From positions 558,001-622,000 of the forward strand of contig CAJYHN010000010.1 in the NCBI GenBank assembly GCA_913774665.1: a stretch of 64,000 nucleotides of DNA. Reading direction: 5' to 3'. A model generated the notes under the pieces. It saw nothing but the letters and a program-made list of their open reading frames with translations, had not been told where the DNA came from and did no database searches. This stretch comes from an uncultured Microbacterium sp. Lineage in GTDB: Bacteria > Actinomycetota > Actinomycetes > Actinomycetales > Microbacteriaceae. Position numbers and translations under genes: made by a program. Shown here piece after piece: positions 22,745-49,364 of this stretch; within the stretch, counting starts at the first letter, position 1; each line of letters opens with the position of its first letter.

Positions 22745-23869
22745 ATGAGCCGATCCACGCGCCCCGATCCCACCAGCGAAGGCGCACACGCCGGGGCCAC
22801 CACGTCGCGCGACAGACCGGTCTGGTCGGCCCTCTCGCGCCCGTACGCGGCCGGGTTCTTCCTCACCCTGGGCGGGCTCACGGCGATCCTGCTCGCGCTG
22901 GCCCTGTCGAACCTGTCGACCGTGCTCATCTACATCGCCATCGCTCTGTTCATCGCTCTGGCCCTCGACCCCCTCGTGCGTCTGCTCGTGCGCCGCGGGC
23001 TCTCTCGCGCGTGGTCGATCATGATCGTGTTCGGCGGGCTCGCCGTGGTGCTCGCCGGGGCCCTCTGGCTGCTCATCCCGCCGGTCGTGCGTCAGGTCGA
23101 ACAGTTCGTCGGCGACATCCCCACCTTCGTGAACGACCTGGTCGACAGTGAGGCCGTGCGTTGGGTCGAGACCAACTTCGGCGACAGCCTGGGCGACGTC
23201 CTGAAAGAGGTGCAGGGCTTCGTCACCAACCCCGCGAACATCGCCGCGATCGGCGGCGGGCTGCTTCAGGTCGGAATCGACATCGGCACCTTCATCTCGG
23301 GTGCGATCATCGTGCTCGTCCTGAGCCTGTACTTCTTGGCATCCCTGCCGAAGATGAAGAACTCGCTCGTGCGCCTCACCCCCGCACGGAGCCGCGAGAC
23401 CGTGGCCGACATGACCGGTCAGATCACCGACTCGGTCGGTGGCTACCTCGCCGGCATGGTCGTGCTCGCGTTGTGCAACGCGGTCTTCGCCTTCATCGTG
23501 TTGACGATCCTCGGTCAGCCGTTCGCCGCCCTCCTCGCCGCTCTCGCGTTCGGCATCACCCTCATCCCGCTCGTTGGGTCGGTTCTCTTCTGGGCGACCG
23601 CGACCGTCTTCACGCTCATCGTCAGTCCGACCGCCGGGCTCATCTTCGCCATCGTCTACCTGGTCTATATGCAGATCGAGGCATATCTGCTCACGCCCCG
23701 CGTGATGAACCGGACGATCTCGATACCCGGCGCCCTCGTCGTCATCGGAGCACTGGTCGGCGGCACGCTCCTGGGCCTGCTGGGGGCGCTCGTGGCGATC
23801 CCCGTGACCGCGTCGGTCCTGCTGATCATCAAGCAGATCGTGATCCCGCGACAGGATGCCAAGAAGTAG
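22745..23869 (+). CDS. AI-2E family transporter (YhhT/TqsA/PerM family permease)
   Basis: A 374-aa inner-membrane protein with about eight spans: FFLTLGGLTAILLALALSNL, VLIYIAIALFIALALDPLV, SIMIVFGGLAVVLAGALWLLIPPVV near the front, then a loop of about 60 residues and spans toward the end with the family-typical GALVVIGALVGGTLLGLLGALVAIPVTASVLL. Substrates of the family vary (signals, small organics, Na+/H+ in some), so none is assigned. Its last 41 nt overlap tail-to-tail with the giant glycosidase gene. Confidence 0.88.
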   Translation: MSRSTRPDPTSEGAHAGATTSRDRPVWSALSRPYAAGFFLTLGGLTAILLALALSNLSTVLIYIAIALFIALALDPLVRLLVRRGLSRAWSIMIVFGGLAVVLAGALWLLIPPVVRQVEQFVGDIPTFVNDLVDSEAVRWVETNFGDSLGDVLKEVQGFVTNPANIAAIGGGLLQVGIDIGTFISGAIIVLVLSLYFLASLPKMKNSLVRLTPARSRETVADMTGQITDSVGGYLAGMVVLALCNAVFAFIVLTILGQPFAALLAALAFGITLIPLVGSVLFWATATVFTLIVSPTAGLIFAIVYLVYMQIEAYLLTPRVMNRTISIPGALVVIGALVGGTLLGLLGALVAIPVTASVLLIIKQIVIPRQDAKK

Positions 23870-26800
23870 CCGCCCGCGCCGAGCGGCGTCGGCGGTGAAG
23901 GGCGATCGCCATCACGAGCAGCCCCAGCGCGAGGACGCTCGAGCCGAGGACCGTCGCGATCCGAGCGGGCGCGGGGTCTTGACCTGTCGTGGCGAGCGGC
24001 GGCGTCTGCGAGGACGACGCGCCCGGGGTGACGACGGTCACCTGAGCGGTGATCTCACCGCCCGGCACCATCAGCGCCACGGTGTGCGTCCCCGCCTCTG
24101 CGTACGCGGGGACGGTGAACACCCCGCTCCCTGTGCCGTCGGCGCCGATCGTGAGACTACCCAAACGAGCCGGTGTCGAGCGGAACTCGACGGCGAACAC
24201 CGTTCCCGGCGCCGCCCCGGTGACCGTGACGGGCAGCTGGCCGCCCGGGGAGACCTGCGTCACGCCGACGCGGAGCACCTCCTTACCGGTGAGCGACCCG
24301 GTCGGTTCCGCGCCCGGGTCCCCTCCGCCCGCGCCGGGTCCGGTGCCGGGGTTCCCCCCGGAAGACGTCCCCTTCGCGGAAATGCTCGCCTCGACGACCT
24401 CCGACAGGTTCCCGGCCACATCGACGACCCGTACCCGGACCGTTGTGGCGGAATCGCCGACGGCAACGCTTCCCTGGGCCGGGATCCATACGCCGCCGCC
24501 CACTTGGTACTCCACCAGAGCCACGCCCGAGCCGGTGTCGGTACCCGCGGGGGTCACCGTCCGCGCCTCGGCGTTGTAGCCGACATCGGCGACCGGCTTG
24601 GCGGCATCCCTCTTGACGTCGACCTGAACGGAGGCGGAGATATTGCCCGCTGCATCCCCGGCCCGGAACCAGATCGTCGTCACGCCGTCGGTCGAGACCT
24701 CGACCGGCGCGGTGTACGCGGCCCATTCGCCGTCTCCGACGCGTGCCTCGATCTTCGGGGCGTCGTCACGGTCATCGATCGCCGTCGCGGAGACCTTGAC
24801 TGTGCCGGTATGCCAACCGCTCGTCGGGGCGACGGGATCGACCGTCGTGGCCACGACAGGGGCCTGTGTGTCGGGAGTGGGCATCGTGGGCTGTTCCCAC
24901 ACCTGCCATTCCTTGATGCCGACGCTGCCCTTGCCCTGCTCGGTCCCGACCGGGTCGAGCGCGAGGCGGAGCTTCGTCGTGGTCACCGGGTCGAACGACA
25001 CCGTGTTGTAGGTGTCCTTCGCCGTGCCGTACGTGCCCGCGTTCTTCACGGGCACCCACGCGCTGGTCGTGGCATCCCAATACTCGGCCTCCCACTTCGC
25101 GGGGACGTCGATGCCGAGCCCCTGCGCATCGATGTTCGACACGAAGTACACGCCCAGTTCGCCGACCGTCACCGGCTCGGTCCAGTCGTACTGCACCCAC
25201 TGGTCGGTCACCGCGGGCCAGACGCCCCACACGTTCGCGTTGTCGCTGGGTGCGACGTCGCCGGAGGACGTGGGCTGGACGTTGTCGTTCAGACCCGTGA
25301 CCTTGTTCCAGGCGGCGGTTCCGGATGCCGTGGGCGTGGCGAGCAGGGCGGCGTTCCGCCGCTGCGTGCCATCGGCCTTCGGCACCGTGCGCTCGATAAC
25401 CGGCGAGGCGTTGCCCGCGGTGTCGGTGGAGCGCACCTGCACCTTCGTCTCGTCGAGTCCGACGAGCACGGAACCCGTCAGCGCCCTCCAGCCACCGGAG
25501 TCGCCCAGGCGGTACTCGATCGAGGCCACACCCGAGCCGGAGTCCGTCGCGGTGGCCTTGATCGTGCGCGAGACCGCGTCGGTGGTCACCTCGACGGCCG
25601 GAGCCGTGGTGTCGATGCGCACGGTCTGCTCGGCCACCGACGACGTGTTACCCGCCGCGTCGGTCGCCCGGGCCTGCACGACGTGGGCTCCGTCGCCGGT
25701 CACCGAGACGGTGCCGGTGTAGGCCGCCCAGGAGCCCGCATCCACGCGCACCTCAATGCGCGGAGAGGCGTCCTGGTCGTCGCGCGCCGTCACGTCGACG
25801 GCGACCGCCTGCGTGTACCAGCCCGACCCGGGAGCCGCGGGCGAGACCTGGAAGGCGACCGTGGGCGCCTTCGTGTCGTCGCCGCCGGTCCCGACCGTCA
25901 CTGCCGCCGAGGCGGCCTTGGCACCGGGCAGGTCGCTCTGCACCGTGCCCGCGACCGTGAACTGTCCCGGTGCGGCGTACGAGTCCGCGGCGACCGCGTT
26001 CCACGTGACCGGGAGATCCTGGCGCGAGCCGTCGTTGAACAGCACGCCCACCGTCTTCGGCAGCACCGGCGCGACACCCGGCTGGGTGCGGCTGGTCACG
26101 GCATCCACCTGGTTGATCTGGCCGGGAGGGGTCGCGCGGACCCACACGGTCGCCTTGGCCGAGAGGGGCGAGCCGGGGACGATACCCGACACCGGGAAGC
26201 TGCCCTCACCCGCGACCTGCGCGTCGCTGACCTCGGCCCACGTCACGGCGAGGTCGGCGTGGCTGCCGTCGGAGTACGTGGCATCCACCGTCGCGGGAAG
26301 CGTCGGCTTCGTGCCCACGGCCGTGCGCACGTCGATCGGCTCGATCGAGGTGGGCGCGTCGGCGAACACCTTCAGCTCGCTGACGGCGACGGCCGCGTAC
26401 GGTCCGGTGCCCGCGGCCTGCAGCACGACGCGGAGCCGCGTGGTGGTCACGGCGTCGAACGTCACCGCGTTGGAGGCGTCGCGCGCCACGGTGTACGCCG
26501 AAGGGCCGGACACGTCGACCCAGCCGCTACCGTTCCAGTACTGCGCCTTCCATCCCTTCGGAACGTTGACGCCGTTGCTGGAGTTCGGATCGGTCTGGTC
26601 GCCCCAGAAGCTGATCTCGGCTCCGGCGATGCGCTGCGGCGTCGCCCACTCGTACTGCAGCCAGCGAGTGGCGGGGTGGGTGCCAGACCAGGTGCCCCAG
26701 ATGTCGCTCTGGCTGCCGCCGGTGAACAGCACCTTGCCGTCGTTGACCGCCCGGACGTTGTTCCAGCCGGCCGTGTACTCGGCGGTCGGGGTGGCCTCGG

Positions 26801-29800
26801 GAGCAACGTTCGTGCCCGCGGTGACGGGCTCGCCCTGCACGGTCACGTCGGTCTGCGAGGTCTTCTCGCCGTCGTCGCCCGTAAGCCGCAGCACATACGT
26901 TCCCTTGTCCGAGAAGCGCGCCGTGGTCGAAGCGGCCGCCGCGTCGTCGAAGAGCACCGTGGCACCCTCGGGGGCGCTCACCACGCTCCACCGCGACGAG
27001 AGCTCACCGCCGGGCAGAGCGTCGTCCTTCACGGAGCCCACCAGGGCTGCCGCGCCGCCGACCGAGGCCTGGCGGTCCTGCCAGGCGGTGATCAGCGGAG
27101 CCTGGTTGGTGGATGCCGGGGCGGCGACGCCCGTGTCGAACACCTGCAGTTCCTTCACACCGGTGCGCGCTCCGCTGGCGTGCGTGACCGTGAGCCGCAC
27201 GGCGTCTCCGGTGACCGCGGGGAACTGCACCTGGTTGTAGTTGGCGCGCGGGTAGGCGGGCGTGCGGGCCTGCTGCGGGATCACCGACCACTGTCCGCCT
27301 CGACGCACCTCGAGCGTGTAGACCGAGGGTTCCGCGTAGCCGGGCGCCGTCGCCGACGAGGAGCTGTCGTAGAAGTAGGTGCGCACGTCGTCGAAGGTCT
27401 TCTCTCCGCCGAGCTCGACGGTGAGGGAGTCCTTCGCGTTCGGTGAACCCGCGGTCCCCCAGAAGGGTTCGTTGATGGTCGTCCCGTTCACGGCGCCCGC
27501 CGGCTCGCGCCCCGCGGCCGAGAAGGTCGCGGTCGCCGAGGCGGCGAGGTTGGCGCTGCCGGTGCTCGCGGTGCGCACATCGGCACCCGCCTTGGCGAAG
27601 AGGTCGACCACACGGGCGTCGTCGGCGAACCGCACGTCCTGAGGAGCCTGGACAGTGGATGCCGTGGCGGTGGTGACCTTCGCGTCACCCTTCACGACCT
27701 CGACGGTGCCGCTGGCGGGATCGTAGACCACGTGCGAGAGCTTGTCGACGGTGAACGCGAGCTTGCCGTCGAGGAACACCGAGTACCCCTCGGGCACGTC
27801 GTCGCCGTAGTGCCGTTCGCCGCCGGGGGCGTCCCACGTGACCGTCAGGTCGCGGTCGCGGTAACGGATGTTATTCGCGGTGAAGTGATCCCAGCCGATG
27901 TCGATCGGGTCGAGCTCGATCTTGGCATCGCTGCGGGTGCGCACCCCCATGGCGTCTTCGATCATCGTGAAGTTCGTCGCGCCCAGGATCGTGTGGTGGA
28001 TCCACGAGCGGTAGTCGATCTTCGGCGGGTCCGCCGAGCCGTTGGCCCAGAACTCGTTCTGGTCGGGCAGGCGGTTGTCACCGCCGTTCTGGTAGTGCGA
28101 CCAGGCGTTCCAGTAGAGGAGCTTCTTGTACCACTCGGCGTTGATCGCGTCGGTGGGGTAGTCGCGCAACACCTTCGAGAGCATGCGGAATGTCACAGTG
28201 GAGTTGATGACCGAGAAGTTGTTGCTCCCCTGCCCACCGGTGGCGTTGTACGCGGCCTGGTCGGCCTGGTTCGCCGTGTAGAAGGGGAAGATCGGGTACT
28301 GCTTGTCGTCGGCGAACAGCCGTAGCGCCTCGACGTAGTCGTCCTTGTAGTCGGCATCCCCGGGCTTGGGCACCAGCCCCACGGTGAACGGGTAGTAGTT
28401 GTTGATCTCCTTCCATGGCACGTGCTCGCCGTTGTTCGCCATGGCGTGCTCGATGAGCTTGGAGTCGGGGTTCCAGAGCACCTTCATGACCTGCGTCTTG
28501 ATGTTCTGGGCGAAGGCGTCCATCTCATCGGCCTTGGCCGTCTCGCCGGCCGTGCGGTAGGCCTGGGCCGAGGCGAGGGCGTTGGAGTAGAGATAGGCGT
28601 TCTCGGCGCGGTCCTGGTATCCGCCCTTCCAGTGGAACGACACGGCATCCGCGTCGTTGCCCGTCATGGCGCCCCAGTTGTACTCGATCAGGCCGTTCTT
28701 GTTGAAGTCGTAGGCGTCGACGAGGCCCTTGACGTCGTCCTCGGCGTACTCGGCGAGGTTCTTGGCGATCGCGGTGGGGCCGCCGTGCAGCTCGTAGGAG
28801 CGCCAGGCCGCTTCGGAGATGTACTGCGTGTAGCTGTTCGACCAGTTGGCGGGGTCACCCGGGTTGTCGACGAACTTGTAGCTCTTGCTCGTCTCGCCGG
28901 TCGAGACCCACGGACCGTAGGAGTAGATCGGGTCGCGGAAGTACTTGAGGTCATCGATGAACATGCCCGTGGTCAGCACGATGGAGTTGTTGTACCCGAG
29001 CACCCCTTCCATCGCGACGGGGAACTGGTAGGTGTTGCCGGGCATGTCGGCGTCGAGGAAGTTATACCTCATCAGCCACCAGCGGTAGTACAGCGTCTTG
29101 TCGATGTTGTCTTCGGGGGTGTCGAGGTAGGGGACGTTCTCGGCCCACCACCGGTTGTAGGCGGTGACGTGGGCCGTGTACGCCTCGCCCGCCGACTGCG
29201 CGCGCGTGGTGTCGTACTCGGTGCGGGAGGCCGCGATCTCGTCGGTGACGAGTCCGAGCTGCAGCTTCGCGGTGACCGAGCCACCGGCGGGGACGGACAG
29301 CGTGCGCGCGAGGGTCTCGCCCGCGGGGGCGAACCCGTCGCCCGAGAAACGCGGCGACAGCTTCGTGAGGTCGTTCAGCGCCTGGACGTGGCCGACGAGT
29401 TCGTCGCCCTCCGCGGTGACGGCGTAGGGGGAGGAAGCCACGAGCTCGACGTCGACCGCTCCTCCGGTCGAGCGCACCTCGAGGTCGGTCACCAGCACGT
29501 TGGCGTCGGTGATGAACTTCGTCTGCACGACCTCGATACCGGAGGCGCGATGAACGCTCCGCCAGTAGCTCGGCGTCTGCTTGCGCTGGGAGACGTCCTC
29601 GGCGAGAGCGACATCGGTGCCGCCGACACGGGCGGTCACGGTGTATCCGGAGCGCCCGTCGATCGATTCCCAGTAGGCGAGCTGTCCACCGAAGCCGAGG
29701 ACGGCGGGGTTGTGCTCCTTCATGAAGGCGGCCCGCCCGCGGGTGAACAGCCACTGGTTGTTGTCGCCGAAGCTACCGGCGTCGCCGGTGCGGGCGAGCA

Positions 29801-30071
29801 TCTCGTCCATCCAGAAGTCGTTCGACGCGCTGGAGCCGGCGCCGGCGGCGAGGTCGGCGTCGAAGATCCTCTGCAGCTGATTGCCGGGGGTGTAGGCCAC
29901 CCCGGTGTCGGGGACGGGGGTCGGGCTTCCCGAGAACGTCGGGTAGCCGATGTCGGTGTTGGCGGCGTGTGCCGGCGCGACCACGAAGGTCGTCGCCAGC
30001 ACCGTCGCGATCGCCGCTGTGGCGATCGCGGAGCGCCCGACGCGACGGGGGGTCGTCGGATTGCAGTCCAC
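23829..30071 (-). CDS. giant secreted cell-wall-anchored glycosidase, probably GH121 beta-L-arabinobiosidase (HypBA2-like)
   Basis: A 2,080-aa exoprotein. Residues 1-36 are a signal peptide ending AHAA. Residues 40-800 form one long catalytic region of (alpha/alpha)6 type (NDFWMDEMLARTGD, YYRWWLMRYNFLDADMPGN, GLIEYNWGAMTGND, EINNYYPFTVGLVP, DYRSWIHHTILGATNF). Then: discoidin-like module about 840-980, PKD/Ig-like, second discoidin-like 1087-1233, two Big_4-like 1233-1390, Ig-like repeats, third discoidin-like 1570-1727, more Ig-like, a Gly/Pro linker near 1905, and LATTG (2026-2030) followed by a membrane span and RRRR, a sortase-E-type anchor. Size, anchor and the neighbouring GH127 and importer match B. 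longum HypBA2 (GH121); the GH family is inferred from context, not proven. Confidence 0.65.
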   Translation of the reverse strand: MDCNPTTPRRVGRSAIATAAIATVLATTFVVAPAHAANTDIGYPTFSGSPTPVPDTGVAYTPGNQLQRIFDADLAAGAGSSASNDFWMDEMLARTGDAGSFGDNNQWLFTRGRAAFMKEHNPAVLGFGGQLAYWESIDGRSGYTVTARVGGTDVALAEDVSQRKQTPSYWRSVHRASGIEVVQTKFITDANVLVTDLEVRSTGGAVDVELVASSPYAVTAEGDELVGHVQALNDLTKLSPRFSGDGFAPAGETLARTLSVPAGGSVTAKLQLGLVTDEIAASRTEYDTTRAQSAGEAYTAHVTAYNRWWAENVPYLDTPEDNIDKTLYYRWWLMRYNFLDADMPGNTYQFPVAMEGVLGYNNSIVLTTGMFIDDLKYFRDPIYSYGPWVSTGETSKSYKFVDNPGDPANWSNSYTQYISEAAWRSYELHGGPTAIAKNLAEYAEDDVKGLVDAYDFNKNGLIEYNWGAMTGNDADAVSFHWKGGYQDRAENAYLYSNALASAQAYRTAGETAKADEMDAFAQNIKTQVMKVLWNPDSKLIEHAMANNGEHVPWKEINNYYPFTVGLVPKPGDADYKDDYVEALRLFADDKQYPIFPFYTANQADQAAYNATGGQGSNNFSVINSTVTFRMLSKVLRDYPTDAINAEWYKKLLYWNAWSHYQNGGDNRLPDQNEFWANGSADPPKIDYRSWIHHTILGATNFTMIEDAMGVRTRSDAKIELDPIDIGWDHFTANNIRYRDRDLTVTWDAPGGERHYGDDVPEGYSVFLDGKLAFTVDKLSHVVYDPASGTVEVVKGDAKVTTATASTVQAPQDVRFADDARVVDLFAKAGADVRTASTGSANLAASATATFSAAGREPAGAVNGTTINEPFWGTAGSPNAKDSLTVELGGEKTFDDVRTYFYDSSSSATAPGYAEPSVYTLEVRRGGQWSVIPQQARTPAYPRANYNQVQFPAVTGDAVRLTVTHASGARTGVKELQVFDTGVAAPASTNQAPLITAWQDRQASVGGAAALVGSVKDDALPGGELSSRWSVVSAPEGATVLFDDAAAASTTARFSDKGTYVLRLTGDDGEKTSQTDVTVQGEPVTAGTNVAPEATPTAEYTAGWNNVRAVNDGKVLFTGGSQSDIWGTWSGTHPATRWLQYEWATPQRIAGAEISFWGDQTDPNSSNGVNVPKGWKAQYWNGSGWVDVSGPSAYTVARDASNAVTFDAVTTTRLRVVLQAAGTGPYAAVAVSELKVFADAPTSIEPIDVRTAVGTKPTLPATVDATYSDGSHADLAVTWAEVSDAQVAGEGSFPVSGIVPGSPLSAKATVWVRATPPGQINQVDAVTSRTQPGVAPVLPKTVGVLFNDGSRQDLPVTWNAVAADSYAAPGQFTVAGTVQSDLPGAKAASAAVTVGTGGDDTKAPTVAFQVSPAAPGSGWYTQAVAVDVTARDDQDASPRIEVRVDAGSWAAYTGTVSVTGDGAHVVQARATDAAGNTSSVAEQTVRIDTTAPAVEVTTDAVSRTIKATATDSGSGVASIEYRLGDSGGWRALTGSVLVGLDETKVQVRSTDTAGNASPVIERTVPKADGTQRRNAALLATPTASGTAAWNKVTGLNDNVQPTSSGDVAPSDNANVWGVWPAVTDQWVQYDWTEPVTVGELGVYFVSNIDAQGLGIDVPAKWEAEYWDATTSAWVPVKNAGTYGTAKDTYNTVSFDPVTTTKLRLALDPVGTEQGKGSVGIKEWQVWEQPTMPTPDTQAPVVATTVDPVAPTSGWHTGTVKVSATAIDDRDDAPKIEARVGDGEWAAYTAPVEVSTDGVTTIWFRAGDAAGNISASVQVDVKRDAAKPVADVGYNAEARTVTPAGTDTGSGVALVEYQVGGGVWIPAQGSVAVGDSATTVRVRVVDVAGNLSEVVEASISAKGTSSGGNPGTGPGAGGGDPGAEPTGSLTGKEVLRVGVTQVSPGGQLPVTVTGAAPGTVFAVEFRSTPARLGSLTIGADGTGSGVFTVPAYAEAGTHTVALMVPGGEITAQVTVVTPGASSSQTPPLATTGQDPAPARIATVLGSSVLALGLLVMAIALHRRRRSARAATSWHPVAGSRSA

Positions 30072-30207
30072 GGTGTCTGTTCCTCTCGCGCCGTTCGTCG
30101 ATGAGCGGCGGGTGCGTGGGGGGCACGCTACAGACGGGGGCGGAGATTTCGCAATGGTTTTCGTCTATTTCGAAAAAACGGCGAAAACAGCGCGCGAGCA
30201 CGCAGAT
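30072..30207. promoter_or_regulatory. upstream region of the giant glycosidase gene with a candidate operator
   Basis: An AT-rich patch in GC-rich DNA: TTTTCG (30157-30162) and CGAAAA (30170-30175) form an inverted repeat with 7 nt between. Similar TTTCG/CGAAA words stand before the ABC importer (CGAAAGGGATTTCGG near 31297), so both may bind the LacI protein encoded between them. Confidence 0.35.
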
Positions 30208-31242
30208 TCAGCGGTGAGCGATCGTCGAGCCGCGGATGACGAGCTTGACCGGCATCGGGTGCGTTCCCGCCCCCACGTCGACGCCGTCGATCGCGTCGAA
30301 CACCCGCTGCGCAGCCTGACGACCGAGCTGCTGAAGGTTCGCGTTGATGCTCGTCAGCGGCGGCCGGGCGTTCTCGGTGAGCAGTTCCCAATCGTCGTAT
30401 CCGATGACGGCGAGATCGCCCGGAACGTCGCGACCGAAATCGCGCGCGGTGTCGAGCACACCCCGCGCGATCTGGTCGGAGCCGCAGAACACGGCATCGA
30501 CTTCCGGATGCCGCTCGAGCAGCATCGCGGCGGCATCACGGCCCCAGTGCTCGTTCCATGCCGCGAACATCGGCTCGCCGACGAAGTCCAGACCCGCCGC
30601 GGCGAGCGCCGCACGCGCACCGGCGAGACGATCCTGAGCCGCCGCGTAAGACGGATCGCCGGAGATATGGGCGATGCGGCGGCGGCCGCACGCGAGCAGG
30701 TGCTCGACGGCGAGGCGGCCACCCGAGTAGTTGTCCGGCGTGAGCGACAGATCGCGCGGGTCGTCGGAGGGCGAGTAGGCGTAGACGACCGGGACCGGTA
30801 GTTCCTGACCGAGCGAGGGCCGGGGATCGGTCTGTCGCCCCACCACGATGATCCCGTCGACGCGGCGGCTCAGAAGCGCCCGTAGGTGATGTTGTTCGCG
30901 GATCGCGTCGCCGCGCGCATCGCAGAGGAACACGTTGATCTGTCCCGCACCGAAAGCATCCTCGGCGCCCATGAGGATGGGGATCACGAAGCGACCGTCG
31001 AGGTCGTTCGTGAGCAGGCCCACGGTGCCGGTACGTCCGGCCAGCAAGCCGCGCGCCATGGCGTTGGGGGTGAAGGCGAGCTCGGCGGCCGCCTCCATCA
31101 CTCGCTTGCGCGTTCCCGCGGCGACGTCGCCTCGACCGTTCAAGGCTTTCGACGCCGTCGCGATCGAGACGCCGGCGCGGCGCGCGACATCGCTGAGGGT
31201 GGCGGCCCGTACCGGGTCGGTCATCATCGGCTTCCGTTTCAT
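30208..31242 (-). CDS. LacI family transcriptional regulator of the arabinofuranoside locus
   Basis: A 344-aa sugar-sensing repressor. The N-terminal helix-turn-helix reads ATLSDVARRAGVSIATASKALNGRGDVAAGTRKRVMEAA, followed by the hinge (FTPNAMARGLLAGRTGTVGLL) and a periplasmic-binding-like effector domain (VIGYDDWELLTENARPPLTSINANLQQLGRQAAQRV). ATG at 31242 has GGAGAG 8 nt upstream; ATGs at 31227 and 31224 are alternatives. It lies upstream of the giant glycosidase on the same strand and is divergent from the importer operon (147 nt), an arrangement suited to controlling both. Confidence 0.9.
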   Translation of the reverse strand: MKRKPMMTDPVRAATLSDVARRAGVSIATASKALNGRGDVAAGTRKRVMEAAAELAFTPNAMARGLLAGRTGTVGLLTNDLDGRFVIPILMGAEDAFGAGQINVFLCDARGDAIREQHHLRALLSRRVDGIIVVGRQTDPRPSLGQELPVPVVYAYSPSDDPRDLSLTPDNYSGGRLAVEHLLACGRRRIAHISGDPSYAAAQDRLAGARAALAAAGLDFVGEPMFAAWNEHWGRDAAAMLLERHPEVDAVFCGSDQIARGVLDTARDFGRDVPGDLAVIGYDDWELLTENARPPLTSINANLQQLGRQAAQRVFDAIDGVDVGAGTHPMPVKLVIRGSTIAHR

Positions 31243-31389
31243 ATTTGTGACTCTCCGCCGTCTTGACGGATCGGCTGCACCCACGTTACCGTCCCGAAAG
31301 GGATTTCGGATATTTCGCTGATCCGCCCCGCACAGCGGTGTCGACCCCGAATGTCGCATCCGCTCAATGAAGAGCTAGAGGAGACTGCA

Positions 31390-32685
31390 ATGACCCCATT
31401 CCGGCGCCGCTTCGCCCTCCGGGCAGTGACGGCCATCCTGGCTGCGACCGCTCTCGTCGGCGGACTGGCCGCGTGTTCCGGCGGCTCCACGGCCACCGCA
31501 CCGGCCGACATCCCCGCCGAGGGCACCGACGACGGTTCGACCCTCACCCTGTGGACGCGCGCTCCGCTCGAGAAGCAGGCCAAGGACCTCGTCGCGGCCT
31601 ACAACGCGAGCCACAAGAACCAGGTCGAGCTCACCGTCGTCCCCAACGACGACTACGTCGCCAAGGTCGGAGCGGCCGCCGGATCCGGGGGTCTCCCCGA
31701 TCTGTTCGCTGCCGACATCGTCTACGTCCCGAACTGGGTCGAGCAGGGCCTCTTCCAGGACATCTCCGCGCAGATCGACGGACTGTCCTTTAAGGACACC
31801 ATCAACCAGGGCCACCTCGACGCCGGCACGCTCGACGGCAAGGAGCACGTCCTGCCCTTCGTCCTCGACCTTTCGGTGATGATGTGGAACAAGGCGCTCG
31901 TCGCCGAGGCCGGCCTCGACCCCGAGAAGGCCCCCGCCACGGTCGCCGACTTCGCCAAGACCGCCAAGGCGGTGCAGGCGCTCAACAAGCCCGGCGTCTC
32001 GGGCACCTCGACGGGACTGAACTGCGGCGGCTGCCTGCTCTTCACCTGGTTCCCCTCCATCTGGGCATCCGGCGAAGAGGTGCTGAGCGCCGACGGCACG
32101 AAGTCGCTGCTCAATAACGACGCGGCCAAGAAGGTCTACTCGACATGGAAGGACCTCGACGCCGCGGGCGCCGTCGCCCCGGGCTCCGCCGACGAGACCG
32201 GCGCCACCTGGGTGGCCGGCTTCCAAGAGGGCAAGGTCGGCATCATGCCCTTCCCCGCCACGCTGCTGTCGGGCCTGTCGTTCGACGCGGGCGTGTCGGG
32301 CATCCCGGGCGTCGACGGCGGTGAGTCGACCTTCGTCGGCGGCGACGGCGTCGGCATCTCGAAGGACTCCAAGAAGGCGGCGCAGGCGTGGAACTTCCTG
32401 TCCTGGCTCACCTCGGAGGACGCTCAGGTGGGCGTTCTCGCCAAGGACGGCAGCACCGTCAGCCGCTCCGACCTCGCCACAAACGAGTACTCGTCGAAGG
32501 ACCCCCGCCAGGTGGCCATCAACGAGGTCGCCGGCAAGGGCAAGACGCCGGTGGCGCTGAACTTCCAGCAGGCCTTCAACGCCCCCGGCAGCCCGTGGCT
32601 GACGCTCGTGCGCAACGCCGTCCTCAACGGAACCAACACCGTGGACGCCGACAACGACGAGATCACCGCCGTTCTGTCCCAGTAA
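31390..32685 (+). CDS. sugar ABC transporter substrate-binding lipoprotein
   Basis: Extracellular binding protein, 431 aa, first gene of the importer. Signal and lipobox VGGLAAC (Cys at residue 29), a Ser/Gly linker, then a family 1 binding domain: STLTLWTRAPLEKQAKDLVAAYNAS, PDLFAADIVYVPNWVEQGLFQDIS, and aromatic residues LFTWFPSIWASG that may stack on sugar rings. AGAGGAGA precedes the ATG at 31390. Ligand is likely an arabino-oligosaccharide released by the adjacent enzyme; that is inferred from context. Confidence 0.88.
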   Translation: MTPFRRRFALRAVTAILAATALVGGLAACSGGSTATAPADIPAEGTDDGSTLTLWTRAPLEKQAKDLVAAYNASHKNQVELTVVPNDDYVAKVGAAAGSGGLPDLFAADIVYVPNWVEQGLFQDISAQIDGLSFKDTINQGHLDAGTLDGKEHVLPFVLDLSVMMWNKALVAEAGLDPEKAPATVADFAKTAKAVQALNKPGVSGTSTGLNCGGCLLFTWFPSIWASGEEVLSADGTKSLLNNDAAKKVYSTWKDLDAAGAVAPGSADETGATWVAGFQEGKVGIMPFPATLLSGLSFDAGVSGIPGVDGGESTFVGGDGVGISKDSKKAAQAWNFLSWLTSEDAQVGVLAKDGSTVSRSDLATNEYSSKDPRQVAINEVAGKGKTPVALNFQQAFNAPGSPWLTLVRNAVLNGTNTVDADNDEITAVLSQ

Positions 32686-32691
32686 CCCCCC

Positions 32692-32721
32692 GCGGGGGTG
32701 CCGTCGCGGCGGCACCCCCGC
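32692..32721 (+). promoter_or_regulatory. intercistronic hairpin after the binding-protein gene
   Basis: GCGGGGGTGCCG (32692-32703) and CGGCACCCCCGC (32710-32721) form a perfect 12-bp stem with a 6-nt loop and no T run. Such hairpins after binding-protein genes commonly stabilise the 5' message or damp read-through so that more binding protein than permease is made. Confidence 0.6.
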
Positions 32722-32738
32722 ACCCCGGAAGGAACACC

Positions 32739-33644
32739 GTGGCTCTCCTCACTTCGCCCCGCCGCTCGCGCTACGGCCGTACCGCGCTGGGCGGGCCCGT
32801 CCAGGGTTGGCTCTACGCGGCACCGACGGCTCTGTTCGTCGTCGCGCTCTTCGTCATCCCCCTCCTCCTCGTGCTGCAGATGTCGGGTTCCGACTGGCCA
32901 CTGCTGCGCGGCAACACCGGACCGAACTTCCCCGAGAACTTCGTGGATGCCGTGAACCACCGTCTCTTCTGGGACTCGGTGCGCTTCACCCTGCTCTACA
33001 CCGTCATCACCACGGTCCTGCTCATCGGTCTGGGGCTCGGACTCGCTCTCCTGGTCCAGGAATCGACGGCGTGGAAGGGATTTCTGCGCACGGCCTTCCT
33101 CCTGCCGAGCGCGCTGGGCCTGGCCTCGGCATCCCTCCTCTTCTACGTGCTGTACTCCCCCATCGCCGGACCCTTCTCGAATCTCATGGAGTCGTGGGGA
33201 ATCACCTTCCTGGGCTCTCCGGAGGGGGCTCTGTGGTCCACGGTGTTCCTCATCGTGTGGCGCTTCGCCGGGTTCTACATGCTCCTGCTGCTCGTAGGCC
33301 TCCAGGGCATCCCCGAGGACATCTACGAGGCCGCGCGCATCGACGGCGGTTCGCGGTGGCAGATCTTCCGCGACATCACCGTGCCGCTGCTGCGCCCCAC
33401 CTTCGCCCTGACCACCGTGATGTGCGTGACGGGGTCACTGCTGGCGTTCGATCAGTTCTACATCCTCACCAAGGGCGGGCCCGACAACAGCACCATGACC
33501 GTGGTGCAGCTCATCTACAACATCGCCTTCCAGGGGCAGAACAGCCTGGGCATCGCCGCGGCGCTGTCGGTCATCATCCTGCTCGCCCTGGTGGTCATCA
33601 ACGTCGTGCAGCTGCGCGCGTTCCGTCGTCCCGAGGAGTCCTGA
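32739..33644 (+). CDS. sugar ABC transporter permease (MalF/UgpA type)
   Basis: A 301-aa membrane protein with six spans; the first is WLYAAPTALFVVALFVIPLLLVL. The EAA loop IPEDIYEAARIDGGSRWQIFRDITVPLLRP lies around residues 190-220 and marks the contact with the shared ATPase. GTG at 32739 follows GGAAGGA by 6 nt. No ATP-binding gene is in the operon, as usual for actinobacterial CUT1 sugar importers, which use a common MsiK-type ATPase encoded elsewhere. Confidence 0.9.
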   Translation: MALLTSPRRSRYGRTALGGPVQGWLYAAPTALFVVALFVIPLLLVLQMSGSDWPLLRGNTGPNFPENFVDAVNHRLFWDSVRFTLLYTVITTVLLIGLGLGLALLVQESTAWKGFLRTAFLLPSALGLASASLLFYVLYSPIAGPFSNLMESWGITFLGSPEGALWSTVFLIVWRFAGFYMLLLLVGLQGIPEDIYEAARIDGGSRWQIFRDITVPLLRPTFALTTVMCVTGSLLAFDQFYILTKGGPDNSTMTVVQLIYNIAFQGQNSLGIAAALSVIILLALVVINVVQLRAFRRPEES

Positions 33645-33645
33645 G

Positions 33646-34551
33646 ATGGCCCTGACCGCTGCTCCGTCACCCGCCGCCACCACGAGCACGCGCACCATCG
33701 TCGCGCCGGGAGCGCGCGAGCGCCGCCGGCCGGTGGGACGCCTTCTGTGGGGCATCCCCTCGACCATCTTCACGGGCGCCCTGGCGATCATCTTCCTGTA
33801 CCCGCTCGTGTGGACCGGGGTCGCCTCGGTGAGCCCTCAGGCCGGAACGAGTCAGACCGACGGCTGGGGCTTCGGCAACTACGCCACCCTGGCCAACTTC
33901 CAGTCGGGCATATGGGTCTACCTCGGCAACTCGCTCTTCGTGTCGTTGCTGACGGTGACCCTCACCCTGCTGGTGTCGTTCTTCGGCGGGTACGCCTTCG
34001 CCCGATTCCAGTTCCCCGGCAAGAACCTGCTCTTCCTGTCGGTCCTGGCGATCCTCATGGTCCCGTACGCGACGCTCCTCATCCCGCTGTACGTGATCCT
34101 CAATGCCGTCGGTCTTCAGAATTCCCTCGTGGGCGTCGCGCTCGTGCTGACGATGTTCCAGCTGCCGTTCTCGATGTTCATGATGCGCATCTCGTTCGAG
34201 TCCGTGCCGCGCGAACTCGACGAGGCAGCACTGGTCGACGGGTGCACGAGTTTCAGCGCTCTCTGGCGTGTTCTGCTGCCCGCGGTGAAGCCGGGGCTGA
34301 TCACGGTGGGATTGTTCGCCTTCCTGACCGCGTGGAACGACTTCATCGCCCCCCTGATCCTCATCAACGACCAATCGCGCATCACGCTGCCGCTCGCGGT
34401 GGCGAACCTCCGCGGCCAGACGATGGGCGTCATCGACTACGGGGTCACCGAAGCCGGTGTCGTCGTGCTCGCGCTGCCGTGCATCGTGCTGTTCCTGATC
34501 CTCCAACGTCACTACGTGCGCGGCTTCATGTCCGGCGCCTTCAAGGGATGA
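33646..34551 (+). CDS. sugar ABC transporter permease (MalG/UgpE type)
   Basis: Second permease, 301 aa, one nt after the stop of the first. It begins with a 40-residue Thr/Arg-rich cytoplasmic part, then six spans (TIFTGALAIIFLYPLVWTGV first). The EAA loop is VPRELDEAALVDGCTSFSALWRVLLPAVKPGL near residues 186-216. The stop is followed at once by the GH127 gene. Confidence 0.9.
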   Translation: MALTAAPSPAATTSTRTIVAPGARERRRPVGRLLWGIPSTIFTGALAIIFLYPLVWTGVASVSPQAGTSQTDGWGFGNYATLANFQSGIWVYLGNSLFVSLLTVTLTLLVSFFGGYAFARFQFPGKNLLFLSVLAILMVPYATLLIPLYVILNAVGLQNSLVGVALVLTMFQLPFSMFMMRISFESVPRELDEAALVDGCTSFSALWRVLLPAVKPGLITVGLFAFLTAWNDFIAPLILINDQSRITLPLAVANLRGQTMGVIDYGVTEAGVVVLALPCIVLFLILQRHYVRGFMSGAFKG

Positions 34552-34553
34552 CC

Positions 34554-36506
34554 ATGTCGACCACTCTCCCCGCCCGTCCCCTCGACCCCGACACGGCCCG
34601 CACCGTCGCCGCCCCCGTCGTCCCCTCGCGCTCCCGGCTGCGCCCGCTCGGCTTGGGCGACGTGCGCATCACCGGCGGGTTCTGGGGTGAGCGACAGGGC
34701 GTCAACGCGCGGCACACCCTCGCCCACATCCTCGGACGACTGGAGTCGGAGGGATGGCTCCCCAACTTCGACCGTGCCGCCGCCGGTACCCTCCCCCTCG
34801 GCCGCCGCGGTCGGGAGTTCAGCGACTCCGAGGTCTACAAGTACCTCGAAGCGGCTGCGTGGGAGATCGGCCGCAGCGACGACACCGCTCTGGAGGCCAC
34901 CTTCCGGGCGGTCGTCGATCGCGTCGCCGCGGCTCAGGAGGACGACGGGTACCTCAATACCGAGTTCGGACGGGAGGGGCAGCAGCCCCGATGGTCGGAT
35001 CTCGAGTGGGGTCACGAGTTGTACTGTCTCGGTCACCTCTTCCAGGCGGCGGTGGCTCGTGAGCGCACGCGGCCCGGGGCCGACGACGGGCTGCTGCTCA
35101 TCGCCCGGCGCGCGGCCGACCTGGTCTGCGAGGTCTTCGGGCCCGACGGCATCCCGGCGTTCTGCGGCCACCCCGAGGTGGAGACCGCACTGGCGGAGTT
35201 GGCGCGCGTGACCGGTGACGCGCGCTACGCCGAGCAGGCCGCTCTCTTCGTCGCCCGGCGCGGGCACGAGACGCTCGCCGACATCGAGTGGGGTCGCCGG
35301 TACTTCCAGGACGACGTCCCGGTTCGCGATGCCGAGGCGTTGAGCGGCCATGCCGTACGCGCCAACTACCTCGCGGCGGGTGCCGTCGACGTCGCCGTCG
35401 AGAGCGACGACCACGAGCTGCTGACGTCGTTGCGACGGCAGTGGGCGCGGACGCGCGGACGCCGCACCTACATCACCGGCGGTCAGGGATCGCATCACCA
35501 GGACGAGGCGTTCGGCGACGACTGGGAGCTCCCGTCGGACCGTGCCTACTCCGAGACCTGCGCCGGGATCGCCTCGGTCATGTTCTCGTGGCGTCTTCTT
35601 CTGGCGGGCGGAGAGTCGGCGTACGCCGACTTGATCGAGCGGACGCTGTTCAACGTCGTGGCCACCTCACCGGCCGCCGACGGGCGCAGCTTCTTCTATG
35701 CGAACACGCTCCACCAGCGCGTTCCCGGCATCGTCGCAGACCCCGACGCCACCTCCCCGCGCGCCTCCTCGTCGCTGCGCGCGCCGTGGTTCGACGTGTC
35801 GTGCTGCCCTCCGAACGTGGCCCGCACCCTGGCCAGCCTCGATGCCTACATCGCGACCGCCGATGACCACGGCATCCAGATCCACCAGTACGCGCCGAGC
35901 GAGATTCGAACAACCCTCACCGATGGGAGGGCCGTGTCTCTCGACGTCGCTACTCGCTACCCGAGCGAGGGGAGCATCCGTGTGAGCGTCATCGAAAGCG
36001 CGGACGAGCCCTGGACCCTGTCGTTGCGCGTCCCGGAGTGGGCAGACGGCGCGCGGCTTAGCGTCGAGGGTGCCGACGGAGTGACGCAGGAGGCACCGGC
36101 TGCGGGGGGATGGGCTCGAGTGCATCGCGCCTTCCGAGCGGGTGACGTCGTCGAGCTCGAACTGCCGATGGCCCCCCGCGTCGTCCTCCCCGACCCGCGT
36201 ATCGACGCCGTCCGCGGCTGCGTGGCCGTGGAACGTGGACCCGAGGTGCTCGCCCTGGAATCCGTCGACCTCGACGGCGGCCACGACGTGGGCGAGGTGG
36301 CCGTGCTTCCCGACGTCCCGCCGGTCGAAGACGGAGGACGCGTCTGGATGAGCGTCACCACTCGAGGCTTCGCGCCCGACGGCTGGCCCTACGGCACCGA
36401 GGCGACCGTGGCCCCCGCCGCCGCGGGACGTGTCGCTCTCGTCGCCTATCACGACTGGGGTAACCGCGGCCCGTCGACGATGCGGGTATGGATGCCGATC
36501 GCCTGA
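34554..36506 (+). CDS. GH127 beta-L-arabinofuranosidase (DUF1680, HypBA1-like)
   Basis: Cytoplasmic exo-enzyme removing beta-L-arabinofuranose, for example from Ara-beta-1,2-Ara. No signal peptide. 650 aa, as in the family. The zinc-thiolate active site of HypBA1 is fully present: Glu334 and Cys336 in YSETCAGI and Cys417-Cys418 in DVSCCPPN; the last pair falls at the same numbers as the nucleophile and ligand in B. longum HypBA1 as I recall them. VRITGGFWGERQ, YKYLEAAAWEIG and DEAFGDDWELP are further family blocks. AAGGG 6 nt before ATG 34554 selects this start over ATG 34548. Last gene of the importer operon. Confidence 0.93.
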   Translation: MSTTLPARPLDPDTARTVAAPVVPSRSRLRPLGLGDVRITGGFWGERQGVNARHTLAHILGRLESEGWLPNFDRAAAGTLPLGRRGREFSDSEVYKYLEAAAWEIGRSDDTALEATFRAVVDRVAAAQEDDGYLNTEFGREGQQPRWSDLEWGHELYCLGHLFQAAVARERTRPGADDGLLLIARRAADLVCEVFGPDGIPAFCGHPEVETALAELARVTGDARYAEQAALFVARRGHETLADIEWGRRYFQDDVPVRDAEALSGHAVRANYLAAGAVDVAVESDDHELLTSLRRQWARTRGRRTYITGGQGSHHQDEAFGDDWELPSDRAYSETCAGIASVMFSWRLLLAGGESAYADLIERTLFNVVATSPAADGRSFFYANTLHQRVPGIVADPDATSPRASSSLRAPWFDVSCCPPNVARTLASLDAYIATADDHGIQIHQYAPSEIRTTLTDGRAVSLDVATRYPSEGSIRVSVIESADEPWTLSLRVPEWADGARLSVEGADGVTQEAPAAGGWARVHRAFRAGDVVELELPMAPRVVLPDPRIDAVRGCVAVERGPEVLALESVDLDGGHDVGEVAVLPDVPPVEDGGRVWMSVTTRGFAPDGWPYGTEATVAPAAAGRVALVAYHDWGNRGPSTMRVWMPIA

Positions 36507-40109: not shown

Positions 40110-41129
40110 GTGCCGAGAAAGCGATTCCGGATGCCACTGCGCCCGACGAGCTGGAGGACTCGCGTGACCGCGGGCGCCCTCGCCGCCGCTCTCCTCCCCC
40201 TCCTCGTCGGCTCCCCGGCCGCCGCACACGACGTGCGCGCGGCCGTGACGACGCAGAGCCCGAACCCTCTGGCATCCGGTCCTGCCCTTCCCACCTACTC
40301 CGCCGCCGCCGAGGCGCAGAAGGCCGCGACGGCGGCGGGGCGCACGAGCGTCGCGAAGCAGATCGCGGTGATCGCCGGGCAACCGACCGCGGTCTGGCTG
40401 GGCGAGTGGTACGACGACGCGGCCCTCGTGCGCGTGCTGCGGGCCGAGACGCAGGCCGCGGCGCAGCAGAAGAAGACCGCGGTCTTCGTGCTCTACGCCA
40501 TCCCGGCTCGAGACTGCGGTCTGCACTCCTCCGGCGGTTTCGACGCCGCCGGCTACCAGCGGTGGACGCGGCTGATCGCGCAGACGCTGCGCGGGACGCC
40601 CTCGGTCGCGATCGTCGAGCCCGACGCGCTGGCCATGCTCGGATCCTGCGCGGGACAGGGCGATCGTGTCGGTCTCATCGCCGACGCGGTCCGCACGCTC
40701 GCCGCCGCGGGGGTGCCGTCCTACATCGACGCGGGCAACTCCGACTGGATCCCGGCCGAGACCATGGCCCAGCGCCTGCGCGACGCGGGGGTGTCGGCCG
40801 CCCGCGGGTTCTCGACCAACGTCTCGAACTTCCAGGCCACCAGCGCCGAGCAGCGCTATGCGGAGCGCGTGCGTTTGCTGCTCGGCGGCGCCGCCCGGTA
40901 CGTCATCGACACCTCGCGCAACGGCCGCGGGTGGACCGGCGACTGGTGCAATCCCTCCGGCGTGGGCCTGGGGACCGCACCCCGCGCCGTCACCGGGAGC
41001 GGCGGGCTCGACGCCCTGCTGTGGATCAAGCGACCCGGCGAGAGCGACGGCGTGTGCAACGGTGGCCCCGCCGCGGGCAGCTGGTTCGAGAAGGCGGCTC
41101 TCGACCTCGTCGCACAACGCAAGAGGTAG
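40110..41129 (+). CDS. secreted GH6 family beta-1,4-glucanase/cellobiohydrolase
   Basis: Extracellular cellulose-type glycosidase, 339 aa. A basic start and hydrophobic segment (AGALAAALLPLLVGSPAAAHD) form a signal peptide. Catalytic domain: VLYAIPARDCGLHSSGG holds the proton-donor Asp, SVAIVEPDALAMLG the second Asp, then YIDAGNSDWIP, RGFSTNVSNFQ, YVIDTSRNGRGW, DWCNPSGVGLG and ALLWIKRPGESDG. No carbohydrate-binding module is present, so it likely acts on soluble or amorphous glucan. GTG 40110 or ATG 40131 may be the start. With the HypBA-like locus it points to plant cell walls. Confidence 0.93.
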   Translation: MPRKRFRMPLRPTSWRTRVTAGALAAALLPLLVGSPAAAHDVRAAVTTQSPNPLASGPALPTYSAAAEAQKAATAAGRTSVAKQIAVIAGQPTAVWLGEWYDDAALVRVLRAETQAAAQQKKTAVFVLYAIPARDCGLHSSGGFDAAGYQRWTRLIAQTLRGTPSVAIVEPDALAMLGSCAGQGDRVGLIADAVRTLAAAGVPSYIDAGNSDWIPAETMAQRLRDAGVSAARGFSTNVSNFQATSAEQRYAERVRLLLGGAARYVIDTSRNGRGWTGDWCNPSGVGLGTAPRAVTGSGGLDALLWIKRPGESDGVCNGGPAAGSWFEKAALDLVAQRKR

Positions 41130-47289: not shown

Positions 47290-49312
47290 TCAGTTCTCGC
47301 CCGCACCCTCCCCACCGGATGACGTGGCGTCGGCCGTCCGGACCGCGTCGGGTGCATTGGTGGTCTTGGTCACCAGGGGTAGAGGGCGCGATCGCGGTGG
47401 GGACTGACCGAGCCGTGCAACCACAGGTCTCCGCCCTCGAGCTCCCGGCGCACCGTCGTACCGGAGTGGATGAGGCCGCGGACGCCCTTGTAATAGGCGA
47501 CCCACGCCGTCAGTCGTTGCAGGTCATCGGGCGAAGCCGTGGTGAGATCCCACTCGATTCCGAAGTGCCCGAAGAGCGCGGTGGCCGCCCGGAAGTCCAG
47601 GTCGACGCGACGGCGAGTGGTGTGCGCCCTGTCCGCGCCGACGTGGCTGCCGACCAGCTCCGGCGGAAGCAGCTGCGCGGTCCAGCGCTGGATCTGCTGC
47701 CGTTCGCGGGCGTCGATGCAGTCCGAGGCCCACACGCGATCGGTGTGCTCCAGGATGCCGAGATCGACGCGTGCTCCTCCGGAGGAGCACGACTCGATCT
47801 CCAGCCCCGGGCAGGCGCGGCGGATCGCGTCGAGCAGGCGATAGGTCGCGAGGGTCTGTTCGTGCACTCCCGCCCGCCCGGTCCGGGTGGACCCGGCCTC
47901 GATGAGGTCGCGGTTGTGGTCCCACTTGATGTAGTCGATTCCGTGCTCGCGCACGAGCGAGACGATCTGATCGAAGACGTGGGCGAAGGCACCCGGGTGC
48001 GAGAGATCGAGAACCTGCTGGTGTCGGAAGTCGACGGGCAGACGACCGGGCACCTGCAGGAGCCACTCGGGGTGGGCGGTGGCGAGGTCGGAGGTCACAT
48101 TGACCATCTCGGGCTCGAACCACAGTCCGAACTGCATGCCGCGTCGCTTGACCCCCTCGACGAGGGCGCGGAACCGCCCGCCGCCCCAGACGTCTTCTGC
48201 GATCACCCAACGCCCAGACCCGACGTGTCGTCACGGCGCGAGCCGAACCATCCGTCGTCGAGCACGAAGCGTTCCACTCCCACGCGCTCGGCCGCGTCGG
48301 CGAGCTCGAGCAGCCGCGGCAGTTCGTGGTCGAAGTAGACCGCCTCCCACACGTTCATCACCACGGGGCGGGCGGAGCGCGGGTGCGAGGGCCGCGAGCG
48401 CAGGTGAGCGTGGAAACGCGCGGCGACGGCATCCAGTCCGGCACCATATCCGGCGAAGAGGGCGGGGGTCTCGTACGTTTCACCCGGAGCGAGCTGGATT
48501 TCGCCAGGCAGCAGGAGTTCGCCGCCGAGAATCAGCCGCTCCCCCGAGAAGGCGCGTTCCGCGAGCACACGGTGGTTGCCACTGAACGCGACGTGAAGCC
48601 CCCACGCCTCGCCCTGGCCGAAATCGAGATCGGCTGTCCCCGCGGCCAGGAACGTGGCCGCATCGGCGCCCGTGCGTCCGTGTCGACCCTCGCGAAGGTG
48701 CGTACCAACCGTGAACGGACGCGACTGGGCGACCCTCTCCTTGGCCCACCGCCCGGCCATGTCGAATACGACATCCGCGCGGGTCGGTACCGGCAGCGCC
48801 AGATTCAGCGCGTCGATCGTGTAGGAATCGACGCCGTCGTTGCGCAACGTCGCCGAGAGGCGCAGGAGTCCACTCGGCAGTAGCTCGAGCAGGAGCCCGA
48901 GGGAGAGCTGGGCGTCGACGTCGACCGCCCGCACGCTCACCGATCCGCCCGACGGCGCATCGTCTGAGATCTCCACCGAGACCGGAACGAACCGCGTCGA
49001 CCACGCCCGTCCCGAACGGTGGCCCTGAAGACCCGGGGTACCCGTCCATCCCGCGGCGTTCTCAGGCACGACTCCGACGATGACCGGCACGTCGACACCG
49101 TTGGTGGCCAGTGGCGGCTGTGCGTGCAGGGCGAGCTCGCGGAGGGAGTCGGCATCCTGCGCCCCGATGTCACCACCCCAGTGGATGACGAAAGGGAGAG
49201 CGTCTTGGGGCAGGCCGAGGACGACGGCGACGCCGGCCGCCCGGAGGGTCACGGCCGATGGCCAAAGGGCCTCGAGGTCTCCGTTGATCTCGGTCATCGT
49301 TTGGGTGGTCAC
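47290..49312 (-). pseudogene. frameshifted GH36 alpha-galactosidase
   Basis: Two long frames together make an almost full GH36 enzyme. The upstream part (49312 down to 48203) covers the N-terminal beta domain to VERFVLDDGWFGSRRDDTSGLG. The next part (48206-47370) continues IAEDVWGGGRFRALVEGVK, GLWFEPEMVNV, YIKWDHNRD (nucleophile), IESCSSGGARVDLG and WASDCIDARERQQIQRW (acid/base). One missing base near 48207 (GGCG-TTGG where GGC GAT TGG is expected) splits them. A second likely one-base loss near 47373 (TACCCCTGG) ends the frame; TKTTNAPDAVRTADATSS continues in the third frame to 47290. Pseudogene or sequencing error. Expression would be under the divergent LacI protein. Confidence 0.8.
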
Positions 49313-49349
49313 TGCGTCATCGCCTTCCGGAGAACCCCTCGTCGGGTTC

Positions 49350-49364
49350 TGCAAACGTTGGTCA
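49350..49364. promoter_or_regulatory. operator copy 1 (TGCAAACGTTGGTCA)
   Basis: First of three copies of AAACGTTGGTCA, nearest to the alpha-galactosidase start (49312). The AACGTT core is palindromic, as in LacI-family operators. Confidence 0.65.

Follow-up and report, generated by a model that had tools for sequence, protein, structure and literature searches.

An uncultured Microbacterium sp. (assembly GCA_913774665.1) harbors, on contig CAJYHN010000010.1, a gene cluster built around a giant protein of glycoside hydrolase (GH) family 121. The stretch of DNA analyzed, called the window below, is 64,000 nt long (positions 558,001-622,000, forward strand) and has a G+C content of 70%. The genes of the GH121 protein and of a LacI-family regulator are located on the minus strand, and divergently from them, on the plus strand, are those of an ABC transporter substrate-binding protein (SBP), two permeases, and a GH127 enzyme (Table 1). 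The original prediction, made from the sequence letters, had listed exactly these genes: the 2,080-residue open reading frame (ORF), the LacI, the SBP, the two permeases (above the Pfam cut-offs), no ATPase among them, and the GH127 are all present. The longest ORFs are too long for the LacI and GH127 proteins, whose likeliest starts are near 31242 and at 34548, respectively.

Table 1. Features of the arabinobiose locus, in window coordinates
Feature	Position	Strand	Basis
GH121 β-L-arabinobiosidase (putative), 2080 aa, GTG start, secreted, predicted sortase-anchored	23829..30071	-	profile and structure searches
GH121 catalytic region, residues 37-832	27576..29963	-	HypBA2 alignment
F5/8 type C (discoidin-like) module, residues 846-967	27171..27536	-	Pfam
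LATTG motif of the C-terminal sortase signal, residues 2026-2030	23982..23996	-	by eye
Predicted LacI operator upstream of GH121, CGAAAACCATTGCG	30150..30163	-	pattern searches
LacI-family regulator (BauR-like), 344 aa	30208..31242	-	Pfam; start inferred
Predicted LacI operator in the LacI/SBP gap, CCGAAAGGGATTTCGG	31294..31309	+	pattern searches
ABC binding protein (SBP), lipoprotein-like N-terminus by eye	31390..32685	+	Pfam, similarity to solved structures
ABC permease 1	32739..33644	+	Pfam; start inferred
ABC permease 2	33646..34551	+	Pfam
GH127, 652 aa, no signal peptide seen by eye, presumed cytoplasmic β-L-arabinofuranosidase	34548..36506	+	Pfam, motifs
GH6 gene, 3.6 kb beyond the locus	40110-41129		PF01341, 199 bits

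That the giant enzyme belongs to GH121, as had been proposed, is favored by both profile and structure searches. Its catalytic region, whose closest relatives found are Microbacterium genes (identity up to 96%), resembles Bifidobacterium longum HypBA2 with an E-value of 1e-222 over residues 37-832. The NCBIfam model NF041578 (HypBA2 equivalog) gives 1306 bits, the best stretch matching model positions 12-1368 of 1709. The search for the acidic residues of the family retrieved all three acids of HypBA2: E355 (29007-29009), D473 (28653-28655), and E673 (28053-28055) correspond to HypBA2 E383, D515, and E713. This mapping adds 31 to the structure chain number to obtain the HypBA2 number, and it fits all three residues named in PMC7263609. 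The three acids are invariant in 51/51 aligned GH121 sequences. The fold model agrees, since two β-sandwiches around an (α/α)6 barrel are predicted, matching GH121; an earlier structure model from 6 sequences failed (pLDDT 41.7).

The best solved relative of the SBP is the β-arabinobiose-binding protein of B. longum (PDB ID 6lce), with an E-value of 9e-125, as compared to 6e-24 for the second. The window protein is thus closest to the β-arabinobiose type and, with its two permeases, is consistent with the predicted B. longum-like importer. The SBP and permeases share 50-59% identity with their counterparts in a Bifidobacterium saguinibicoloris locus (L098), and other permeases in the loci of relatives exhibit 29-34% identity to those of the window. 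A UgpC-type ATPase above the cut-off is coded elsewhere in the genome, and the genes of the arabinose route on another contig. The GH127 protein matches PF07944 (E 3e-78), and its catalytic, middle, and C-terminal domains all pass the Pfam cut-offs. It keeps the acid/base Glu, Glu-x-Cys, Cys-Cys, and surrounding His motifs, so that the complete Glu/Cys zinc site announced by the original prediction is found.

A predicted LacI operator, CCGAAA-N4-TTTCGG (CCGAAAGGGATTTCGG), precedes the SBP unit, and a variant, CGAAA-N4-TTGCG, precedes the GH121 gene. Their conservation was followed in GTDB genomes, scanned with two peptide patterns derived from a Microbacteriaceae alignment; 80 of 88 GH121 loci were kept, in 12 named families, the taxon counts being no census. 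The core CGAAA-N4-TTTCG, with at most one mismatch, occurs in 35/36 LacI/SBP gaps, against expectations of 0.16 (base shuffles) and 0.62 (dinucleotide-preserving shuffles). These gaps are that of the window and those of 35 of the 80 named loci (14 with LacI and SBP more than 900 bases apart were left out, and 31 have no close LacI or SBP match). They span 11 named genera, each with at least one positive, many rows being close kin; the single miss is a Streptomyces. Upstream of GH121, 42/78 regions harbor a site, counting the variant as one mismatch, with 0.24 expected from base shuffles. Among the remaining 36, 20 have a GH127 gene directly upstream, so GH121 might lack its own promoter there. 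Within the window, allowing two mismatches gives 4 matches for 1.20 expected, a number reached by 4/100 shuffles. In the whole genome, the strict pattern has a single match, in the LacI/SBP gap of this locus. The available text of PMC5928203 names the bifidobacterial LacI regulators of this pathway BauR; the LacI of the window is 48% identical to that of L098. To note, in another locus (L011:15348-16427), an ORF that looks transposase-like by eye stands between the LacI and SBP genes.

Together, these features make it very probable that the locus lets this soil-type actinobacterium harvest β-1,2-arabinobiose (β-Ara2), a rare disaccharide, from hydroxyproline (Hyp)-linked arabino-oligosaccharides. 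In the proposed pathway, the exported and predicted wall-linked GH121 would cut β-Ara2 from the Ara3-Hyp of plant glycoproteins, with discoidin-like and Ig-like modules that would hold the substrate and span the wall. The SBP and the two permeases would then import β-Ara2, powered by the shared UgpC/MsmK-type ATPase coded elsewhere, and the GH127 enzyme would split it in the cytoplasm into two L-arabinose molecules that enter the arabinose route. LacI would repress both transcription units via the two operators, until released by a breakdown product. Extensin is a possible natural substrate.

Several observations weigh against this pathway. The score of the GH121 protein does not reach the curated NF041578 cut-off of 3200 bits, so that it is a GH121 not filed as a HypBA2 equivalog; none of the 149 genomes of the genus has a match above that value. 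Between the GH127 protein and the HypBA1-type enzyme of L098, identity is only 32%. The solved structures nearest to the GH127 lie at similar distances, with 305 bits for 4qjy, 298 for 6ex6, and 259 for HypBA1 (3wkw), and these two facts make another GH127 substrate possible; we take 6ex6 to be the aceric acid hydrolase BT1003. The locus has no HypAA-type GH43; the genome has 8 GH43 matches, of which the one closest to the GH43 of a related locus, L014, reaches 29% identity. A PF07944 search revealed no second GH127/GH146-type gene in the genome. With both kinds of partner absent, the searches gave no enzyme dedicated to Ara4-Hyp or Ara-Hyp. Finally, a loose operator pattern matches the genome at 3 places, hardly more often than the reversed control with 1 match per strand; in this genome, it is by position and conservation only that the two operators stand out as candidates. 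The third place lies inside a phosphate-permease-like ORF and was taken as chance, and the idea of a wider regulon was dropped.

The original prediction of a B. longum-like pathway is supported, with qualifications: GH121 and the SBP conform, the GH127 belongs to another clade than HypBA1, and the HypAA (α-1,3-arabinofuranosidase) step is missing at the locus. In the fetched flanks of the 80 GH121 loci (shortened at 10 of them), relatives of the L014 GH43 (at least 44% identity) occur at 47 loci and a GH127/146-type gene (at least 37%) at 34. Loci L012, L014, and L016 display a matching GH121 unit followed downstream by extra genes that are absent from the window. The window locus is bordered by an AI-2E-type transporter gene on one side and by lactonase and purA genes on the other, surroundings partly common to relatives: the AI-2E gene follows the extra genes in L012 and L014, and purA and lactonase genes are on the other side in L016. 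The absence of the extra genes suggests that the strain keeps a disaccharide-taking core and would need other organisms, or a different enzyme, for the α-1,3-arabinose of Ara4-Hyp. Elsewhere, a GH59-type (galactocerebrosidase family) gene adjoins GH121 (L018:10804-14772).

Instead of extensin-type Ara3-Hyp, the GH121 enzyme might target another β-arabinofuranose-capped plant glycan, such as that of an arabinogalactan protein, of a plant peptide hormone, or of a pectin side chain. The pairing of GH121 with different accessory enzymes in relatives, and a C-terminal end unlike the FIVAR-transmembrane end of HypBA2 (PMC7263609), would fit such a view. HypBA2 and XeHypBA2, however, both act on Ara3-Hyp according to the available text of PMC7263609 and PMC6085000, and the window enzyme, which would likewise release β-Ara2 from it, keeps the pocket acids and the Pro/Gly/Trp loop. 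Moreover, the 47 loci with one kind of GH43 include 5/5 Lysobacteraceae, recalling the xehypBA2-xehypAA operon. A different glycan is therefore considered unlikely.

Somewhat more doubtful is the view that GH121 and the importer work as in B. longum while the GH127 handles a different β-L-arabinofuranoside or an aceric-acid-type substrate, β-Ara2 being split otherwise or the imported sugar being a different one. Its basis is phylogenetic. In a tree of 34 chosen rows, for which the program warned of long branches, the GH127 of L098, which occupies the same operon slot and is HypBA1-type (1149 bits to 3wre), groups with two Lysobacterales enzymes (L075 and L097), and that of the window with other actinomycetes, with a support of 100/99 each. 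The window GH127 is thus not an ortholog of HypBA1, which it had been equated with, and its role in β-Ara2 cleavage is put forward conditionally for this reason. Furthermore, its sole NCBIfam match is the aceric acid hydrolase model, although at 346 bits for a cut-off of 950. Against a different substrate, the GH127 start overlaps the permease 2 stop and the gene holds the HypBA1 slot in the operon. Its kin lie in the fetched flanks of 48/52 GH121 loci having an SBP, the catalytic motifs are kept, and it is the sole PF07944 match in the genome. We therefore retain the GH127 as the presumed cytoplasmic β-L-arabinofuranosidase. As to the giant protein being a member of another (α/α)6-barrel family (GH142, GH63, or GH65-like) with a merely generic resemblance to GH121, Pfam does see only MGH1-like_GH (37 bits) in the catalytic region, but the HypBA2 alignment and the fold searches reject these families on their scores and leave this option next to no credit.

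The pathway, the enzyme family, and the transporter type have been described in B. longum and partly in Xanthomonas (available text of PMC7263609, PMC6085000, PMC8106489, and PMC10850190). The B. longum Hyp cluster (BLLJ_0208-0213), part of the BauR1 regulon, encodes an SBP, two permeases, HypBA1, HypBA2, and HypAA; the comparison was made through locus L098 and the solved structures. Like this cluster, the window groups a GH121, a β-arabinobiose-type SBP, two permeases without ATPase, a GH127, and a LacI. Unlike it, its GH127 is of the other clade, HypAA is lacking, and GH121 lies beyond LacI with an operator of its own. The Xanthomonas euvesicatoria system (XeHypBA2-XeHypAA/XeHypBA1) shares the GH121 enzyme, but relatives of the SBP, the permease pair, and LacI are absent at E 1e-10 from the fetched flanks of the 5 Lysobacteraceae loci. 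In two GH121 trees (50 and 34 rows chosen from 83 trimmed sequences, plus the partial L100 in one tree), the Lysobacterales rows fall among actinomycete GH121, as they would if the Xanthomonas GH121 derived from actinomycetes, but an AU test does not reject a single actinomycete GH121 clade (p 0.461).

A divergent GH121 clade, clade B, occurs in six genomes of the genus (L019-L024). It is about 34% identical to the window enzyme over the longest match and 37-40% in the catalytic region, and its member L021 matches 6m5a at E 9e-110. As in the window, the three acids are kept, a LacI of the same kind is present (6/6), and an operator variant lies upstream (6/6). The SBP, permeases, and GH127 are found in 5/6, L023 ending just after LacI with its SBP at the edge. 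Unlike in the window, the residues around the acids are altered and the C-terminus has no sortase signal.

The modular tail of the window GH121 had been described as three discoidin-like and several Ig-like modules. Pfam identifies one F5/8 type C module (860-960) and two Big_4 stretches; NCBIfam adds four OmpL47-type stretches, and a PKD-like stretch is below its cut-off. Profile comparison matches residues 1098-1240 to 1580-1730 (99.9%) and, weakly, to the first discoidin (75.8%, E 2e-5), so that three discoidins are plausible but not proved. The N-terminus looks signal-like by eye, and the C-terminus is composed of LATTG, a hydrophobic stretch, and a basic tail (LATTG anchor, as compared to the FIVAR-transmembrane end of HypBA2). 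A class E sortase, presumably recognizing LAXTG, is encoded elsewhere in the genome (239 bits for a cut-off of 160), in agreement with the sortase-E anchor foreseen; attachment of GH121 to the wall by this enzyme is predicted. An LPXTG-like motif followed by a hydrophobic stretch (mean hydropathy 2.0 or more) terminates GH121 in 14 of the 80 named loci, 13 from Microbacteriaceae and 1 from Bifidobacterium, one of the 80 proteins being C-terminally cut by a contig end.

The distribution of GH121 is patchy. Among 249 genomes of the family, that of the window included, 5 from 4 genera match the window GH121 at E 1e-60 or better. In the 149 genomes of the genus, 9 have a GH121 of the window's clade (more than 1100 bits) and 6 one of clade B (408-566 bits). 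The SBP is found in 45 at 69% identity or more, followed by a gap down to 42%. These 45 comprise all 15 GH121 genomes and 30 without GH121. The regions of 20 of the 30 were fetched (L137-L156): 19/20 have the full set of LacI, SBP, two permeases, and GH127, and L150 is cut by a contig end after the SBP. araA-, araB-, or araD-type genes lie within the fetched 20 kb in 10/20; in L143, araA and araD pass the NCBIfam cut-offs, and the kinase matches only a xylulokinase model, below its cut-off. The operator is beside the SBP in 22/30. A search of the 30 genomes for an operator-linked partner enzyme was given up: it returned 43 matches, and the 24 obtained in the reversed control place scattered matches away from the SBP at chance level. 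In L151 (11773-19441), GH27-type and GH95-type genes adjoin the GH121-less cassette.

These 30 importer-only genomes may be scavengers. A tentative extension, to which we give somewhat less than even odds, is that soil and plant actinomycetes use the LacI-importer-GH127 cassette as a stable socket for different surface enzymes, GH121 or clade B, under a shared operator, and that the enzyme-less two thirds of the carriers in the genus scavenge the β-arabinobiose of their neighbors. If so, organisms in soil and on plants would trade the β-Ara2 of plant hydroxyproline glycoproteins as a public good. While gut bifidobacteria and Xanthomonas are the main groups in which the pathway is known, the cassette, complete with importer, regulator, and shared operator, occurs here in Microbacteriaceae, Streptomyces, Glycomyces, Actinoplanes-type, and other actinomycetes. 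Such cassettes are a possible source pool linking bifidobacteria and Xanthomonas, and the pathway could be tested in culturable hosts among their carriers. Predictions open to direct testing concern the uncharacterized GH127 clade, the second GH121 clade, and the importer-only genomes. A specialist may be surprised by how widely the cassette is distributed, by the operator, by the replacement of the GH127, and by the genomes that have the importer only. A literature search, which mostly did not extend to subscription journals, found nothing combining Microbacterium, extensin, and arabinofuranosidase, and no priority is claimed; the one paper it returned that mentions both GH121 and Microbacterium is on a Streptomyces genome (PMC6998099), and its available text lists one GH121 gene in a table.

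Around the locus, Rfam and tRNA scans gave no matches, and a plasmid search returned no record covering 80% of the query. The secreted GH6 gene 3.6 kb on had been read as a sign of a plant-wall lifestyle; the gene is there, and it argues for that lifestyle only weakly. Further on, a GH36 α-galactosidase is split over the adjacent ORFs 47370-48206(-) and 48203-49354(-), matching parts 97-347 and 1-93 of the Melibiase profile. The two look frame-shifted near 48203, and a LacI gene adjoins them.
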